Below are positions 19,760 to 39,499 of a DNA stretch of 40,063 nt, piece after piece; position 1 is the stretch's first letter; each line of letters begins with the position of its first letter. The translations under genes were made by a program, and so were the position numbers. Under the pieces are notes generated by a model. The model did not search any database. It was not told the DNA's origin and worked only from the letters and a program-made list of their open reading frames with translations. The stretch lies in the NCBI GenBank assembly GCA_016780065.1, contig JADHML010000009.1, positions 1 through 40,063 of the forward strand, written 5' to 3'. Source of the stretch: Flavobacteriaceae bacterium (GTDB lineage Bacteria > Bacteroidota > Bacteroidia > Flavobacteriales > Flavobacteriaceae).

Positions 19760-20643
19760 AAGTCAAAAAATATGCTGCCATAGACATAGGCTCCAATGCA
19801 GTCCGTTTGTTAATTTGTAACATTATTGAACAGAAGGGAAAGCCTACTGTATTCTCGAAAAACGCCATCATACGTGTTCCCATTCGTTTGGGAGCAGATT
19901 CTTTTGTGTTTGGTGAGATTGGGGAGGAAAACCAACAACGTATGATAGATGCCATGCATGCCTATAAGTTGTTGATGAAAGTACATGGAGTTTCGCAATA
20001 TCTAGCCTATGCAACTTCTGCCTTGAGAGAGGCAAACAATGGACATCAGTTTGTCGATCGAGTTCAAAAGGCTACTGGAATGAACATCGAAATTATTGAT
20101 GGTCAACGTGAGGCTGAAATTATAGCCTCAACCGATTTGTACTCGGTATTAAAACCCAACAAAAACTATCTATTTGTAGACGTAGGAGGAGGCAGTACTG
20201 AATTGACAGTTTATAGCAAAGGAGAGATTTTAATCTCTAAATCTTTTAAACTTGGCACAGTTCGTTTATTAAAAAAAATGGTTAGTAAACAGGTTTGGGA
20301 TGACTATCAATCTTGGATAGAAACACACACAAACGGATTAAACAATTTTTCCATTCTAGGCTCAGGGGGTACTATTAACACACTGTTTAAATTGTCTGGA
20401 CATAAACTTGGTAAACCATTGTCCTTAGGTTATGTTGAAAAACAGTACAACACTTTAAAAAAGATGAGCCGTAAAAAGATGATGACTCGTCTTAAACTAA
20501 ACCCTGACAGAGCAGATGTCATTGTACAAGCAACTCATATTTATCTATTGGCTATGCAGCATGCAAATGCTTCTAAAATTCATGTGCCTAAAGTGGGCTT
20601 GGCAGATGGTATGGTAAAATATATGTATAAAAAAATGGGTTAG
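19756..20643 (+). CDS. ppx: Exopolyphosphatase / guanosine pentaphosphatase family
   Basis: ASKHA-fold phosphatase of 295 residues. Phosphate-1 loop AAIDIGSNAVRLLI at the N-terminus, the Glu-containing REAEII near 115 as catalytic base region, and phosphate-2 loop FVDVGGGSTEL near 142-152. It lacks the C-terminal HD-like extension of the E. coli Ppx (513 residues), so it is the short two-domain form. GTG start overlapping the ppk1 stop (GTGA) indicates coupling. It probably degrades polyphosphate; pppGpp hydrolysis is possible. Its stop overlaps that of miaE by 4 bases tail to tail. Confidence 0.93.
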   Translation: MKVKKYAAIDIGSNAVRLLICNIIEQKGKPTVFSKNAIIRVPIRLGADSFVFGEIGEENQQRMIDAMHAYKLLMKVHGVSQYLAYATSALREANNGHQFVDRVQKATGMNIEIIDGQREAEIIASTDLYSVLKPNKNYLFVDVGGGSTELTVYSKGEILISKSFKLGTVRLLKKMVSKQVWDDYQSWIETHTNGLNNFSILGSGGTINTLFKLSGHKLGKPLSLGYVEKQYNTLKKMSRKKMMTRLKLNPDRADVIVQATHIYLLAMQHANASKIHVPKVGLADGMVKYMYKKMG

Positions 20644-21224
20644 CCATGCATGGTCTCCTTTACGCCCAGATTTTTCATTAAATGAGCCTCGAATTCTAAT
20701 AAGTTATTCCACTTTTTATCAACGATATTTCTTTGATTGTATCGGCGAGCAAAACCCAAAAACAAACTATAGTGATTGGCCTCGCTAACCATAAGTTTTC
20801 GATAAAAGTCAGCAAGTTCTTTGTCTGGTAATTGTTCTGAAAGTAGACGAAAACGTTCACAGCTACGTGCCTCAATTAGAGCGGCATATAAAAGTTTGTG
20901 TGTTAAATGATCTTCTCTGCTACCTCCTTTTGGAAAAAACTGCATGAGCTGATTGACATATTCATCTTTTCGTTCTCTTCCCAATGACCAGCCACGTTTG
21001 ACAATTTTGTCATGTACCATTTTAAAATGACTCATCTCTTCTTTAACCAAATCGGTCATGGCTTGAACAAGTTCGCTTTTTTCTGGAAAACTAATAATTA
21101 ATGAGATTGCTGTACTTGCTGCCTTTTGCTCACAATAGGCATGATCTGTAAGTATCTCCCGAATATTTTTTTCAACGATGTTGACCCATCGAGGGTCTGT
21201 AGGTAATTTTAATCCAAGCATCAT
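20640..21224 (-). CDS. miaE: tRNA 2-methylthio-N6-isopentenyladenosine hydroxylase
   Basis: Diiron monooxygenase that hydroxylates the isopentenyl group at tRNA position 37. The four-helix iron ligands are visible: Glu/His in DHAYCEQKAA, EEMSHF, then EARSCERF and EANHY, the two E-x2-H type pairs of ferritin-like proteins. At 194 residues it is near the family norm. It starts with tandem ATG codons whose first overlaps the dnaX stop (ATGA), so it is coupled to dnaX. Confidence 0.92.
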   Translation of the reverse strand: MMLGLKLPTDPRWVNIVEKNIREILTDHAYCEQKAASTAISLIISFPEKSELVQAMTDLVKEEMSHFKMVHDKIVKRGWSLGRERKDEYVNQLMQFFPKGGSREDHLTHKLLYAALIEARSCERFRLLSEQLPDKELADFYRKLMVSEANHYSLFLGFARRYNQRNIVDKKWNNLLEFEAHLMKNLGVKETMHG

Positions 21225-22957
21225 AAATCTAAATCAAATTCTTTTCTAAACTCATCAACAAGCGGATTGATGGCTACAAGTTGATCATATTTATCCTTAG
21301 GCGTATAAATAAATTTTTTATCTTCTTTAAGATCTACATGAATCTTAAGACTTAAGGTGTCGTTCTTAAGTTGTTCACCCAAAAACAACATAATATCCCT
21401 TTTCTCGCGTTCAAGTTCTTTTTTATTGGTGTTATTAGGAAATGTTAAGTGAATCTCATTTACGTTTTTTAGTCTCGGGGTATCCAATTTCAATAAGGCA
21501 ACAAGATTATGAGCTCCTTTTTTTTCTTGTTCTTTGATGCTAAGAGACCATATTTTTTCTAATTCCTCTTGCGAAAACTTTTCCTCTCTTTTTGGTTGAA
21601 CAGCTGAACCCTGTTTTTGATTTTCAAACTCTTTTTTGAGTTTGATGCTTGAGAGAGATAAACCCGATACACCTTTGTGTTTTATATCTATTTTTAAGCT
21701 AGGTGATTGTTCTTCAGGTTCTTTGTCAAGATCGTCAGTTTTGGTGTCAACTTCCTTTTTGTTAAGTTGATTGGACTCTGGCTCTGAAACCACTGGGGGT
21801 TCTATATCGTTCTTATGATATTGTTTAACTTCTTTTTTTTGGGGTTCTTTTTCTTTTTCCTCTAAAGAGGGAGGTTTTATGTAGGGTTCAGTCTTTTTTT
21901 TTTCGTCATTAACAGAAGCGATTTGCATGAGGCACAACTCGACTAATAGACGTTGGTTTTTTGAGCTTTTATAATTTAGATCACAGTCATTGGAAAGTTC
22001 CAAGGCCTTCTCAAGAAAATATAGACTTGCATTTTTACTTTGACTAAGGTATTTTGCTTTGGTTGTCTCTGCCACCTCTAAAAGCTCTATGGTTTCTTCA
22101 TTTTTAGCCATCCACAAATCCCTCAAATGACTTCCGAGTCCAGTGATAAAGTGGTGCCCATCAAATCCTTTGCTCAATACCTGATCAAATACCAAGATTG
22201 AAGCTCTAATATTGCCCTCAATGAGGTGGTCTGTGATGTTTATAAATGTGTCAAAATCAAGAATATTTAGATTAATAGACACACTTTGGGCGGTAATTTT
22301 ATTTCCTGAAAAACTTACAATTCGATCAAAAATCGAAAGAGCATCTCTCATGGCACCATCTGCCTTTTGAGCAATAAGCTGGAGGGCTTCTTCTTCAGCT
22401 TCTATGTTTTCTTCTTTTGCGATATGGGATAAATGATTTTTTGCATCTGTAATTCCGATACGTTTAAAATCAAAAATTTGACATCTCGAAAGAATCGTTG
22501 GAATGATCTTATGTTTTTCTGTGGTAGCCAATATGAAAATTGCATGAGCAGGAGGTTCCTCTAGAGTTTTTAAAAACGCATTAAAGGCTGCTTGAGATAA
22601 CATGTGTACCTCATCAATGATATAAACCTTGAATTTCCCGATTTGAGGGGGGATGCGTACCTGATCTATTAAATTTCGTATATCCTCAACAGAGTTATTC
22701 GAAGCAGCATCGAGTTCAAATATATTGAAAGCAAAATCGTTTTGGGTATCAATACCATCTTGAATATTGATTTTCTTAGCTAGAATACGAGCACACGTAG
22801 TTTTGCCTACTCCACGAGGACCACAAAACAACAACGCTTGAGCCAAATGATTTTGCTCTATGGCATTTTCTAAAGTTTGAGTAATCGCATGTTGACCAAC
22901 AACGTCCCCAAATTTTTGAGGTCTATATTTTAAAGCAGATACAACAAATGGCTCCAT
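21221..22957 (-). CDS. dnaX: DNA polymerase III subunit gamma/tau
   Basis: Clamp-loader ATPase and replisome organiser. Walker A GPRGVGKTT at 46-54, Walker B DEVH at 115-118, sensor ATTE at 144-147 and the arginine-finger SRC at 157-159. The zinc module between Walker A and B has lost its cysteines (none between about 62 and 85). A Lys/Glu/Pro-rich linker begins near 350, followed by a C-terminal domain with FSQEELEKIWSL typical of Bacteroidota tau. An A10 run at codons 352-355 could create a short gamma form; see the separate entry. 578 residues; ATG start, with a -7 box 7 bases upstream. Confidence 0.96.
   Translation of the reverse strand: MEPFVVSALKYRPQKFGDVVGQHAITQTLENAIEQNHLAQALLFCGPRGVGKTTCARILAKKINIQDGIDTQNDFAFNIFELDAASNNSVEDIRNLIDQVRIPPQIGKFKVYIIDEVHMLSQAAFNAFLKTLEEPPAHAIFILATTEKHKIIPTILSRCQIFDFKRIGITDAKNHLSHIAKEENIEAEEEALQLIAQKADGAMRDALSIFDRIVSFSGNKITAQSVSINLNILDFDTFINITDHLIEGNIRASILVFDQVLSKGFDGHHFITGLGSHLRDLWMAKNEETIELLEVAETTKAKYLSQSKNASLYFLEKALELSNDCDLNYKSSKNQRLLVELCLMQIASVNDEKKKTEPYIKPPSLEEKEKEPQKKEVKQYHKNDIEPPVVSEPESNQLNKKEVDTKTDDLDKEPEEQSPSLKIDIKHKGVSGLSLSSIKLKKEFENQKQGSAVQPKREEKFSQEELEKIWSLSIKEQEKKGAHNLVALLKLDTPRLKNVNEIHLTFPNNTNKKELEREKRDIMLFLGEQLKNDTLSLKIHVDLKEDKKFIYTPKDKYDQLVAINPLVDEFRKEFDLDL
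21888..21904 (-). other. Candidate dnaX slippage / frameshift site
   Basis: On the coding strand GAA AAA AAA AAG (codons 352-355) contains ten A in a row and ends in the E. coli-type slippery heptamer A AAA AAG. A -1 shift, or one extra A in the mRNA, gives GAC TGA (stop at 21890-21888) and a 356-residue product; loss of one A gives a stop after residue 359. E. coli uses ribosomal frameshifting and Thermus uses transcript slippage on A9 at the equivalent place. No SD-like stimulator lies just upstream and only a weak hairpin downstream, so transcript slippage is more likely. Confidence 0.55.
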
Positions 22958-23038: not shown

Positions 23039-23042
23039 CCAC

Positions 23043-23333
23043 GCAGGCCTCCTTACCGCTTTGTTTCAGGCAAAGAGGAAAGTCCGGACACCAAAGCGCA
23101 GTATAGCGGGTAACGCCCGTCGCTTTACCTTAAAAGTAAAGTAGGACCAGTGCAACAGAAAGCAAGTACAGTTCGGCTGTAGTGAAATCAGGTAAACTCT
23201 ATACGGTGAAACGTCAAATATACCAACGCTTGAGGGTAGCGCGCCCAAGTTGGCGGGTAGGCGGTTAGAGCCCATTAGCAATGATGGGCCTAGATCAATG
23301 GTAAGGCACGACAGAATCCGGCTTATGGCCTGC
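23043..23333 (+). ncRNA. rnpB: RNase P RNA (class A)
   Basis: Catalytic RNA that removes tRNA 5' leaders. Seen: the conserved core GAGGAAAGTCCGGACACC near 23071-23089, the universally conserved ACAGAATCCGGCTTA near 23310-23325, AGTGCAACAGAAAGCAAG in the P10-P12 region, and closing helix P1 formed by GCAGGCC (23043-23049) with GGCCTGC (23327-23333). About 291 nt, slightly short for class A. A TTTTT follows P1 and probably ends transcription. Ends were set from helix P1 and may be off by a few bases. Open reading frames over it are not genes. Confidence 0.96.
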
Positions 23334-23336
23334 TTT

Positions 23337-23756
23337 TTATTTATTTGTTGGACCAATAATTTCCGTAAAAAAATCATCATTTGCCTCCCAAAGTTCGATC
23401 GCATTTCCTTCTGGATCGAGAATGTGGACAAATTTTCCATACGGGTACTTCGATATTTCGTCAATGACCGTAACACCGCTTTCCTGTAATTCCTCTAGGA
23501 TGGCTTCTAAGTCATCCACCCGATAGTTTATCATAAAATTTTTCTTAGATGGCCAGAAATAATCTGTTTGACTCGACAATGCAGACCATAAAAAATAATT
23601 AATCTGTTCAGGATCGTTAGCGTTTCTGAATTCAAAAGATGATCCATAATGGTTTAAGTGAAATCCTAGTGTGTCCCTATACCAAGCACGTAAGGTATCA
23701 GGCTTTTTGGCTTTGAAGAATACACCACCAATGCCAATGACTTTGGGTTTACTCAT
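23337..23756 (-). CDS. VOC / glyoxalase-like protein
   Basis: 139-residue vicinal-oxygen-chelate fold protein with two beta-alpha-beta-beta-beta repeats: first half IGGVFFKAKKPDTLRAWYRDTLGFHL, second half ending GKFVHILDPEGNAIELWE. The terminal Glu of IELWE is the usual metal ligand. Such proteins act as dioxygenases, lyases, resistance proteins or chaperone-like binders, and the substrate cannot be told from sequence. Its stop codon abuts the rnpB 3' end, so its transcript may run into rnpB antisense. It lies 30 bases after wbqC and may be the last gene of that run. Confidence 0.88.
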   Translation of the reverse strand: MSKPKVIGIGGVFFKAKKPDTLRAWYRDTLGFHLNHYGSSFEFRNANDPEQINYFLWSALSSQTDYFWPSKKNFMINYRVDDLEAILEELQESGVTVIDEISKYPYGKFVHILDPEGNAIELWEANDDFFTEIIGPTNK

Positions 23757-29104: not shown

Positions 29105-29980
29105 TTATTTTTTTTTCAACATGATTTTGCGCAACATGGTCCACATAGCTTTGGGGATTTTGTCGAGCATATTGAACTGCCCTGCGCCTTTCAGCCATTC
29201 GCCTCCGTCTAGGACTATGGTTTCTCCGTTTAGATAGGCACCAAAATCAGAAACCATGTAGGCAGCCAAGTTGGCCAACTCTTGATGTTCTCCCACACGA
29301 CCCAAAGGTACTTTTTTGGCTGGATCAAATTTTTTAACCAACGGCCCAGGCAACAACCGTTCCCATGCTCCTTTGGTCGGAAAGGGTCCTGGAGCAATGG
29401 CATTAAAACGCATTCCATACTTTGCCCATTCAACGGCCAAAGATCGTGTCATGGCTAAAACGCCTGCTTTTGAAACAGCAGATGGTACCACGTATCCCGA
29501 GCCAGTAAAAGCATAGGTGGTAATGATGTTGAGGACATTCACATTTTTTTGTTTGGTCTTAATCCAGTGTTTTCCAAACACTAAAGTGCAGTTTTTGGTT
29601 CCTTTTAACACAATATCGATAATTGTATCAAAAGCATTGGCAGAGAGATTTTCGGTTGGTGAAATAAAATTTCCTGCCGCATTATTCAATAACACATCGA
29701 TAGGGCCAAGCTTCTCCACCACCTTTTCATGCATTTCAACCACTTGATCATATTCGCGAACATCACAAGAGACCGCAAAACATTCTCCCCCAGTAAGTGA
29801 AGAAAGCTCATCAGCAGTCGCTTGTAATTTTTCGAGATTTCGAGAAGTAATGGCTACTTTGGCTCCCAGTTCTAAAAAATATTGGGTCATCGCTTTGCCC
29901 AATCCGCTACCACCCCCTGTAACGACGATTGTTTTCCCTGAAAGAGCATCGTCTCTAAGCATTTTATCTGAATATGTCAT
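29105..29980 (-). CDS. SDR oxidoreductase, 2,4-dienoyl-CoA reductase type
   Basis: Short-chain dehydrogenase of 291 residues with NADP-binding VTGGGSGLGKAM and NNAAGNF. In the active site the usual YxxxK tyrosine is replaced: the stretch GSGYVVPSAVSKAG has Ser at the Tyr position. Mammalian mitochondrial 2,4-dienoyl-CoA reductase has the same substitution and nearly the same block, including WAKYGMRFNAIAPGP and PTKGA. The enzyme therefore probably reduces unsaturated acyl-CoA in fatty-acid beta-oxidation. It starts 38 bases after the divIC-like gene and could be the last gene of that transcript. Confidence 0.88.
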   Translation of the reverse strand: MTYSDKMLRDDALSGKTIVVTGGGSGLGKAMTQYFLELGAKVAITSRNLEKLQATADELSSLTGGECFAVSCDVREYDQVVEMHEKVVEKLGPIDVLLNNAAGNFISPTENLSANAFDTIIDIVLKGTKNCTLVFGKHWIKTKQKNVNVLNIITTYAFTGSGYVVPSAVSKAGVLAMTRSLAVEWAKYGMRFNAIAPGPFPTKGAWERLLPGPLVKKFDPAKKVPLGRVGEHQELANLAAYMVSDFGAYLNGETIVLDGGEWLKGAGQFNMLDKIPKAMWTMLRKIMLKKK

Positions 29981-35712: not shown

Positions 35713-36743
35713 ATAAATCCTGACACATACCGCAAGCCAACTCCAATAGTTAACAAGATGGAGAACATCCAAACACCTAGTAAAACAAGGTGAAGCCCAA
35801 GTGTGTATGTGAGACTCGGATTTATGATCCATTTACCAAGTAATAACATATATATTACTGGAATGGCTGCCACTACTAGTACGGGAGCGACTGCCCACCA
35901 AACAGGAATGCCCATGTGTACGATGTCTAAAGGGGGCCAAAATGGATCTCCCAAAGTGATATCGAATAGTTCATATAGCCCTATCGTAAACAAAGCAACT
36001 AACAAAGCGAAAAGCCCCAATGAGCTCATGAAAACCAATACAAGACCTAAAAATTGCCTTAAAAAACCAAACAGTTTTTTGAATACATCAGCGATTTTTT
36101 TAAAAAAAACGTTGGTTTTAGAACGAATCTTATCTCCAGTTGCTTCGTAGTCCGTGTTTTTGACACGCTGTGCTACCTCATCAATACTTTCTTTAATTTT
36201 TTTTTCTAGGTTGGAGATGTTAATCGGCTCACCACGCATCATTAGTTTTTCTACTGTGGTCTTAGCTTCGGAAAGAATGATCCACAATACAAAGTAGATT
36301 AATATAAATCCACCCCACGAGAACAACCCCAAAATAAGCCATATCAAACGAACCCACTTGACTTGCAACCCAAAATAATGAGCCAACCCTGCAGCTACCC
36401 CACTAATGATTTTGTCGTCTGGATCTCTAAATAATTTTCGCTTATGTGTGGTTTTTTCTTCCTCATCAATCTCCTCTGTATCCATTTTGAAGGCATTAGG
36501 CTGCCCCATAGTTTCTATCACGTAAGTCACATCTTGAAGAGTGATGACTTGTCTTTGATGTGTGATTTTTTCGCTAAACAACTCTGCAATTCGCGACTCA
36601 ATATCAGTAAGTATTTCATCTCTCAGTGCTTGATCTCTGAAGTGGGTTTTTATGGCTTCTAGGTACTGTGATAAATTGTCATAGGCATTTTGATCTATAT
36701 AAAAATGTTGCCCTCCTAGGTTTATATTTAGGGTAGTATTCAT
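35709..36743 (-). CDS. PspC-domain envelope stress membrane protein
   Basis: 344 residues. An N-terminal cytoplasmic helical region (NTTLNINLGGQHFYIDQNAY through DVTYVIETMGQP) is followed by the PspC domain KLFRDPDDKIISGVAAGLAHYFG with its membrane helix (to about 160), a charged linker with helices, and three further membrane helices in the C-terminal third. PspC proteins sense or relay inner-membrane stress. It overlaps padR by 4 bases (ATGA), so it is under that regulator's promoter. Confidence 0.9.
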   Translation of the reverse strand: MNTTLNINLGGQHFYIDQNAYDNLSQYLEAIKTHFRDQALRDEILTDIESRIAELFSEKITHQRQVITLQDVTYVIETMGQPNAFKMDTEEIDEEEKTTHKRKLFRDPDDKIISGVAAGLAHYFGLQVKWVRLIWLILGLFSWGGFILIYFVLWIILSEAKTTVEKLMMRGEPINISNLEKKIKESIDEVAQRVKNTDYEATGDKIRSKTNVFFKKIADVFKKLFGFLRQFLGLVLVFMSSLGLFALLVALFTIGLYELFDITLGDPFWPPLDIVHMGIPVWWAVAPVLVVAAIPVIYMLLLGKWIINPSLTYTLGLHLVLLGVWMFSILLTIGVGLRYVSGFI

Positions 36744-38806: not shown

Positions 38807-39499
38807 TTAGTTTGGAATGACAACCATTTTCATTCGCACATTATCTTTAGGCCATTCGCGTTTATCGGTTGGTAGGTTGGCAATTTTATCTACCACATCC
38901 ATTCCCTGTATCACATTGCCAAAAACCGTATAATTTCCATCCAAGTGATAAGCTCCTGGTACTTGCTGGACAATAAAAAACTCATAGGGTGATGCCAGTC
39001 TGTGAGGGTTGTCAATTTCACTACTAGGCATGGATACTGCCCCTCTGTGATGGCGTAATCCGTTTTTAGTATCAGGCGGTAATAAATATTTGCCGATGGC
39101 TCGTCTCTTTTTAGAAGTACTCGTTTGATCTGAATTTCCTCCTTGAATAATAAAATCTTTTACAACTCTATGAAAGAAAGTGCCGTCAAAATATCCTTTA
39201 CTTGCGAGATAAATAAAGTTTGCCCGATGATAGGGTGTTTTTTGGTGAAGTTTGATGATAATGTTTCCATATTGTGTTTCAACGCGCACCTTGTCAGCAG
39301 AATTTTTTTGGGCGTATTCGAAAAAAAAAGGAATGGCATTTTCGTCTGTCAATACAAATTCTTTTTTAGGGGTAGGTTGAATAGGTTTTGGTTTTTCGGT
39401 AATTTGTGGCTTTGAAACCGCTAGGGGCTTGGGTTTAGTCGTACATCCAAGAACTACTCCAAGAGTGATGACATAAAAGAATAAAGAATGCAGTTTCAC
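38807..39499 (-). CDS. Lipoprotein cyclophilin-type peptidyl-prolyl isomerase
   Basis: 230 residues. Lipoprotein signal peptide with lipobox VVLGC at about residue 19, then a Pro/Lys-rich linker (about 22-50) and a cyclophilin domain with VETQYGNIIIKLH, FFHRVVKDFIIQGG and GNYTVFGNVIQGMDVVDKI. It folds exported proteins in the periplasm. Start is GTG at 39499, overlapping the Nudix gene's ATG by 12 bases head to head. A -7 box (CAAAAATA on +, TATTTTTG on -) at 39519-39526 lies inside the Nudix gene. Confidence 0.93.
   Translation of the reverse strand: MKLHSLFFYVITLGVVLGCTTKPKPLAVSKPQITEKPKPIQPTPKKEFVLTDENAIPFFFEYAQKNSADKVRVETQYGNIIIKLHQKTPYHRANFIYLASKGYFDGTFFHRVVKDFIIQGGNSDQTSTSKKRRAIGKYLLPPDTKNGLRHHRGAVSMPSSEIDNPHRLASPYEFFIVQQVPGAYHLDGNYTVFGNVIQGMDVVDKIANLPTDKREWPKDNVRMKMVVIPN

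Follow-up and report, generated by a model that had tools for sequence, protein, structure and literature searches.

A ten-adenine run in dnaX of a Flavobacteriaceae bacterium is a likely programmed slippage site for gamma-like and tau clamp-loader proteins

In Thermus thermophilus, dnaX encodes tau in one frame that runs across nine A, stops lie near in both other frames and slipped mRNAs give rise to the shorter gamma protein (Larsen et al. 2000; consulted portions of PMC1088944 and PMC5009743). According to the same portions, this type of slippage produces mRNAs with varying A counts and yields both proteins at about 1:1 (PMC1088944, PMC5009743). In E. coli, gamma and tau are made from the one dnaX gene by -1 ribosomal frameshifting (excerpts of PMC5009743 and PMC3711429). 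A GeneTack survey described dnaX genes in which a poly-A run joins two ORFs, comprising 17 genes from 12 genera, nine of them with ten A (Antonov et al. 2013, PMC3711429, in the part consulted), and regarded a varying direction of the shift as a mark of transcriptional realignment. According to a review, when the efficiency is close to 50%, changing a single nucleotide can be enough to exchange the product that depends on the shift for the one that does not. In the titles and opening lines of abstracts of the open-licence literature, we found no report of a poly-A dnaX site across the Flavobacteriaceae. Poly-A slippage in dnaX is thus already known, and what we describe here is a wider conservation of the site and a freer change of frame than is stated in the portions of these sources that were consulted.

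The window, by which we mean the whole stretch analysed, covers 40,063 nucleotides of a Flavobacteriaceae bacterium (assembly GCA_016780065.1, contig JADHML010000009.1). Its dnaX gene is a single ORF of 578 aa (65.9 kDa, modelled) that is stop-free across a run of exactly ten A, read as GAA AAA AAA AAG (Table 1). The NCBIfam model TIGR02397 matches residues 6-346, Pfam PF12169 (DNA_pol3_gamma3) scores 26.6 bits (cut-off 24.4), and the N-terminal part of the protein matches gamma and tau chains of known E. coli structures (best E 5.3e-63, residues 5-271). A sequence-only reading of this DNA had reported the run, its codons and the two out-of-frame products of 356 and 359 residues, and recomputation from the sequence returned the same positions and lengths; the heptamer A AAA AAG that it named lies within the run. 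It had also proposed that a truncation here falls at the end of the clamp-loader domains and removes the tau tail, in agreement with the end of Pfam domain III at residue 357. Modelled mRNAs with one more, one fewer or two more A are predicted to end shortly after the run, whereas three more A retain tau with 579 aa. A protein made from a slipped mRNA would thus retain the ATPase as well as domain III, but nothing of the tau tail.

Table 1. Coordinates of dnaX, its putative slippage site and neighbouring features in the window
Feature	Position	Strand	Remark	Basis
dnaX, clamp-loader subunit gamma/tau	21221..22957	-	template frame = tau, 578 aa	ORF, translation; NCBIfam gamma/tau models
A10 run	21894..21903	-	proposed slippage site, codons 352-355	sequence; kept in relatives
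TGA	21888..21890	-	after one added A or a -1 ribosomal shift; 356-residue product (40.0 kDa)	modelled product
TAA	21877..21879	-	after one lost A (359 residues, 40.3 kDa) or two added (360 residues)	modelled product
Domain III	21887..22270	-	residues 230-357; last domain left in short product	Pfam PF12169
Tau-specific linker and tail	21221..21887	-	absent from short product	position downstream of run
MiaE gene	20640..21224		ATGA overlap with dnaX end at 21221-21224	Pfam PF06175
RNase P RNA, class A	23040-23340	+	divergent from dnaX and immediately upstream	
A9 run	29108-29116		sense strand of short-chain dehydrogenase gene, near its end	
A9 run	36197-36205		sense strand of PspC-domain protein gene	
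T9 run	39321-39329		in sense of cyclophilin-type isomerase gene	

The window dnaX resembles that of Thermus in having a long A run, one open tau frame and close stops in both other frames. It differs in having ten rather than nine A; mRNA heterogeneity, which has been shown in Thermus, is a prediction for the window gene. With the GeneTack genes it shares the gene and the run length, and their two-ORF arrangement is found in many relatives of the window (68 run-bearing genes, see below); the window gene itself, however, is one ORF and its tau tail does not lie in another frame. The conservation across the family, the occurrence of both arrangements side by side and the stops in both frames go beyond what the consulted part of PMC3711429 states.

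We consider it likely that the A10 run serves for programmed slippage and so gives gamma-like and tau proteins. According to this proposal, RNA polymerase would slip on the run and generate dnaX mRNAs with differing A counts; those with 10 or 13 A would be translated into full-length tau, while in the others translation would soon run into a stop codon, the product being a gamma-like protein of 356-360 residues with no tau tail. We infer slippage in this organism, RNA polymerase rather than the ribosome as its agent, the ratio of the products and the action of the short form as gamma. Early termination after slippage would also remove ribosomes from the junction of dnaX and the MiaE gene, and the share of tau might therefore affect MiaE.

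Relatives were examined in the genus and in a wider set that grew out of it. In the genus, 12 further genomes were searched, nine with a dnaX N-terminus, one with the tail only and two with neither. The wider set held 330 loci, 327 of which had a dnaX N-terminus, giving 320 distinct genes; it is a non-random sample, as three of the searches retained only their best 30 matches and some of the phylum rows were chosen by hand. Run length was taken as the longest A run within 50 codons from about codon 338, and by this measure the 320 genes comprise 226 with A10, 30 with A9, 28 with A11, seven with A12-A14, one with A8 and 28 with a shorter run.

The frame of tau was placed by the tail that is conserved in relatives and was scored wherever the run measured at least eight A; nine two-ORF genes have no placed tail, and L180, in which the break lies far downstream of the site, was not counted as split. 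In 213 genes of the wider set tau can be read straight across the run, whereas 61 genes would have to gain an A to make it and seven would have to lose one. In these last 68 genes the tail lies in another frame, and therefore tau itself needs the slip. The length of the run stays near ten whatever the frame, and is exactly ten A in 43 of the 61 genes that need one more. On a FastTree phylogeny of the N-terminal proteins, a minimum of 35 changes of frame class was counted with branch support ignored, as opposed to a mean of 61 with shuffled labels; when only the A10 genes of this tree were considered, the minimum was 23. In L322, L323 and L326-L330, which belong to the phylum but lie outside the class, the zero-frame products are near 400 aa and an A9-A10 run occupies the equivalent position, which recalls the Chlorobium genes in the consulted part of PMC3711429.

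The main alternative is that the ribosome and not RNA polymerase slips, with a -1 shift, or a slide in either direction, at the lysine codons, much as E. coli dnaX does it, and termination at the nearby stop. The heptamer A AAA AAG and the close stop in the -1 frame are features that the window gene has in common with E. coli, any A10 holds a sequence on which ribosomes could slip, and ribosomes have been reported to slide on poly-A (PMC4363877, in part). In addition, the direction of the shift is lopsided, with 61 of the 68 split relatives requiring the equivalent of -1, and 161 of 282 genes have an SD-like (GGAG-like) motif no more than 14 bases ahead of the run. The window gene is not one of these: as the sequence-only reading had noted, no SD-like motif is found in the 30 bases before its run. 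The fold after the run is also weak (a four-pair hairpin, -4.7 kcal/mol, z -1.6 vs mononucleotide shuffles), and over 282 genes no excess of downstream fold over control positions was seen (mean z -0.39 vs -0.45, mononucleotide shuffles). Moreover, SD pairing is blocked in Bacteroidia, whose ribosomes fail to recognize SD sequences because the anti-SD is sequestered (PMC9976891, in the portion consulted). The window also differs from E. coli in having A10 instead of a plain heptamer and a stop in the third frame too; a run of 9-11 A, present in 284 of the 320 genes, is more than an E. coli-type heptamer needs. Furthermore, its orthologues need both directions of shift, and the seven that need the opposite one are at odds with a -1 mechanism. 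A shift by the ribosome therefore seems unlikely to us. Transcript slippage, which had been preferred before any relatives were compared, is favoured because both directions occur among relatives, the run measures 9-11 A and no stimulator was found in the window.

A second alternative is that the run arose by accident, simply because the linker is rich in lysine and the DNA rich in AT, and serves no function. For the window gene alone this would be reasonable, as E-K-K-K encoded with the codon use of this gene yields A10 with a probability of 0.41; to that extent the earlier caution that chance could produce such a run in AT-rich DNA stands. It does not hold across relatives: from amino acids and codon use, A9 or longer is expected in 84.8 of 171 family genes (SD 6.1; two of the 173 family genes were dropped from this test), whereas it was observed in 169, although formal probabilities come out too small because the genes are related. 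In the genus, the run is not broken by synonymous codons but is kept in all ten dnaX genes, the window included (nine with A10 and one with A14). The A14 gene, L009, reads GAG AAA AAA AAA AAA AAG at codons 352-356 and still has tau in frame. The count of genes with A9 or longer is 171 of 173 in the family, 15 of 16 in the order, 19 of 20 in the class and 19 of 33 in the phylum, and 67 of 78 for named records, among them all 22 named Flavobacteriaceae; the exceptions within the family are L210, with A8, and L039, in which the run is lost. In 236 full-length genes, 213-214 runs of nine or more lie at the dnaX site (the count depends on L310, in which the longest run is 48 codons further on) and 13 elsewhere in the genes. 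Exact A10 runs are rare in the own genome of the window, with four on both strands of 1.02 Mb, in an assembly that is 58% complete, and dnaX holds one of them; the window contains three other A or T runs of nine (Table 1). Together with the conserved stops and with the tau tails placed in other frames in 68 genes, these counts make an accident very improbable.

The 28 genes of the wider set without a run of eight include one family gene; 14 come from other classes of the phylum and 11 are named Bacteroidota records, several of the latter being Bacteroides-like MAGs. The run site is therefore not essential throughout the phylum. L173, L177, L190 and L180-like breaks, in MAGs, are also found among them. 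An A8 run about 60 bases downstream of the A10 run, pointed out in the sequence-only reading, does exist at codon 373 of the window gene and was considered as a second slippage site. No run of eight is present there in the nine other genus genes (L008 has A7 near this place), and since the genus does not conserve it, we regard it as incidental.

The stops beyond the run are conserved as well. In the genus, the frame reached by one added A has a stop one codon past the run in ten of ten genes, and the stop of the other frame lies 5 to 17 codons past it in the ten genes. Of 170 family genes, 165 have a stop in both non-tau frames no further than 10 codons past the run, as do 100 of 111 others, so that the proposed check, whether related flavobacteria keep the out-of-frame stop, comes out positive for both frames. 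As controls, the same was found at 31.2% of 2,950 tail positions and in 30.4% after synonymous shuffling for the family set, and at 23.9% and in 42.1%, respectively, for the non-family genes, where the family label includes L025, of another family, and omits L032, L035, L036, L037 and L039. One of the stops is often created by an isoleucine ATA codon (TAC ATA A), ATA being used there in 95 of 119 family genes vs 25% gene-wide.

It could be argued that the split frames merely reflect homopolymer errors in sequencing or assembly, since many of the genomes are MAGs and 27 of the 36 all-split clades, a count that still includes L180, are single genomes. The other nine clades, however, have 2 to 12 members, six split genes sit in single-contig genomes (G035, G038, G053, G385, G096 and G060), and in the 43 genes with exactly ten A that need one more, the frame has moved outside the run. 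Errors would furthermore not put stops into both other frames. As a general explanation errors are hardly credible, while in single-genome split clades they may account for the frame case by case. That the run is a DNA-level phase-variation tract switching tau on and off, as its variation in length between species (A8 to A14) might suggest, is equally hard to credit, as cells without tau should, judging from E. coli, replicate poorly.

One genus of the window's family, g21, has lost the run. Of its 21 genomes, all of them drafts, 17 have dnaX, and none of these 17 genes (L331-L347) has the A run. The zero frame closes at codon 353-354 in every one of them, by TAA in 16 genes and by TAG in one, and the tau tail lies one base back from this frame. 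All 17 contain TCTCTCC, although this motif had been included in the pattern used to search them. Between this motif and the zero-frame stop, the tail frame keeps P, F, R/W and G, whereas the zero frame takes H/L, F/L/S and E/G/V. In pairwise comparisons of the 16 genes without N, 155 codon differences in the tail frame are synonymous and 103 are not, as compared with 96 and 172 in the zero frame. The substitutions fit the tail frame, so this frame, constrained as protein from directly past TCTCTCC, is translated before the zero-frame stop is reached. All 17 g21 genes have a tail-frame ATG within the Leu-Cys codons, vs 52 of 169 family-set genes; translation of the tail could accordingly begin separately at this ATG or follow from a frameshift close to TCTCTCC, both of which would fit. 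L039 is the only g21 gene in the tree, and the two genes nearest to it have A10 and a split tail. L210 (G130, genus g115) has a split dnaX with A8 only and TCTCTCC upstream as in g21, and is perhaps an intermediate state. Taking these observations together, we tentatively propose, as a reading that is somewhat short of probable, that Bacteroidota keep the site while the tau frame moves freely, since slippage serves all frames, and that in g21 the run has been lost and replaced, the tail being reached by a shift that does not depend on a homopolymer or by internal initiation at the ATG overlapping gamma.

If programmed slippage at the A10 run is confirmed, a large group of bacteria from the environment would set their two clamp-loader forms, gamma and tau, by slippage on a ten-base run, and would do so where ribosomes make no use of the SD stimulator on which E. 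coli dnaX relies. Gene callers would also be warned that many seemingly frameshifted dnaX genes are real. Genus g21 offers a natural experiment on the replacement of a recoding site in an essential gene, and, should internal initiation prove true there, this clamp-loader gene would have been split into gamma and a separate tail.
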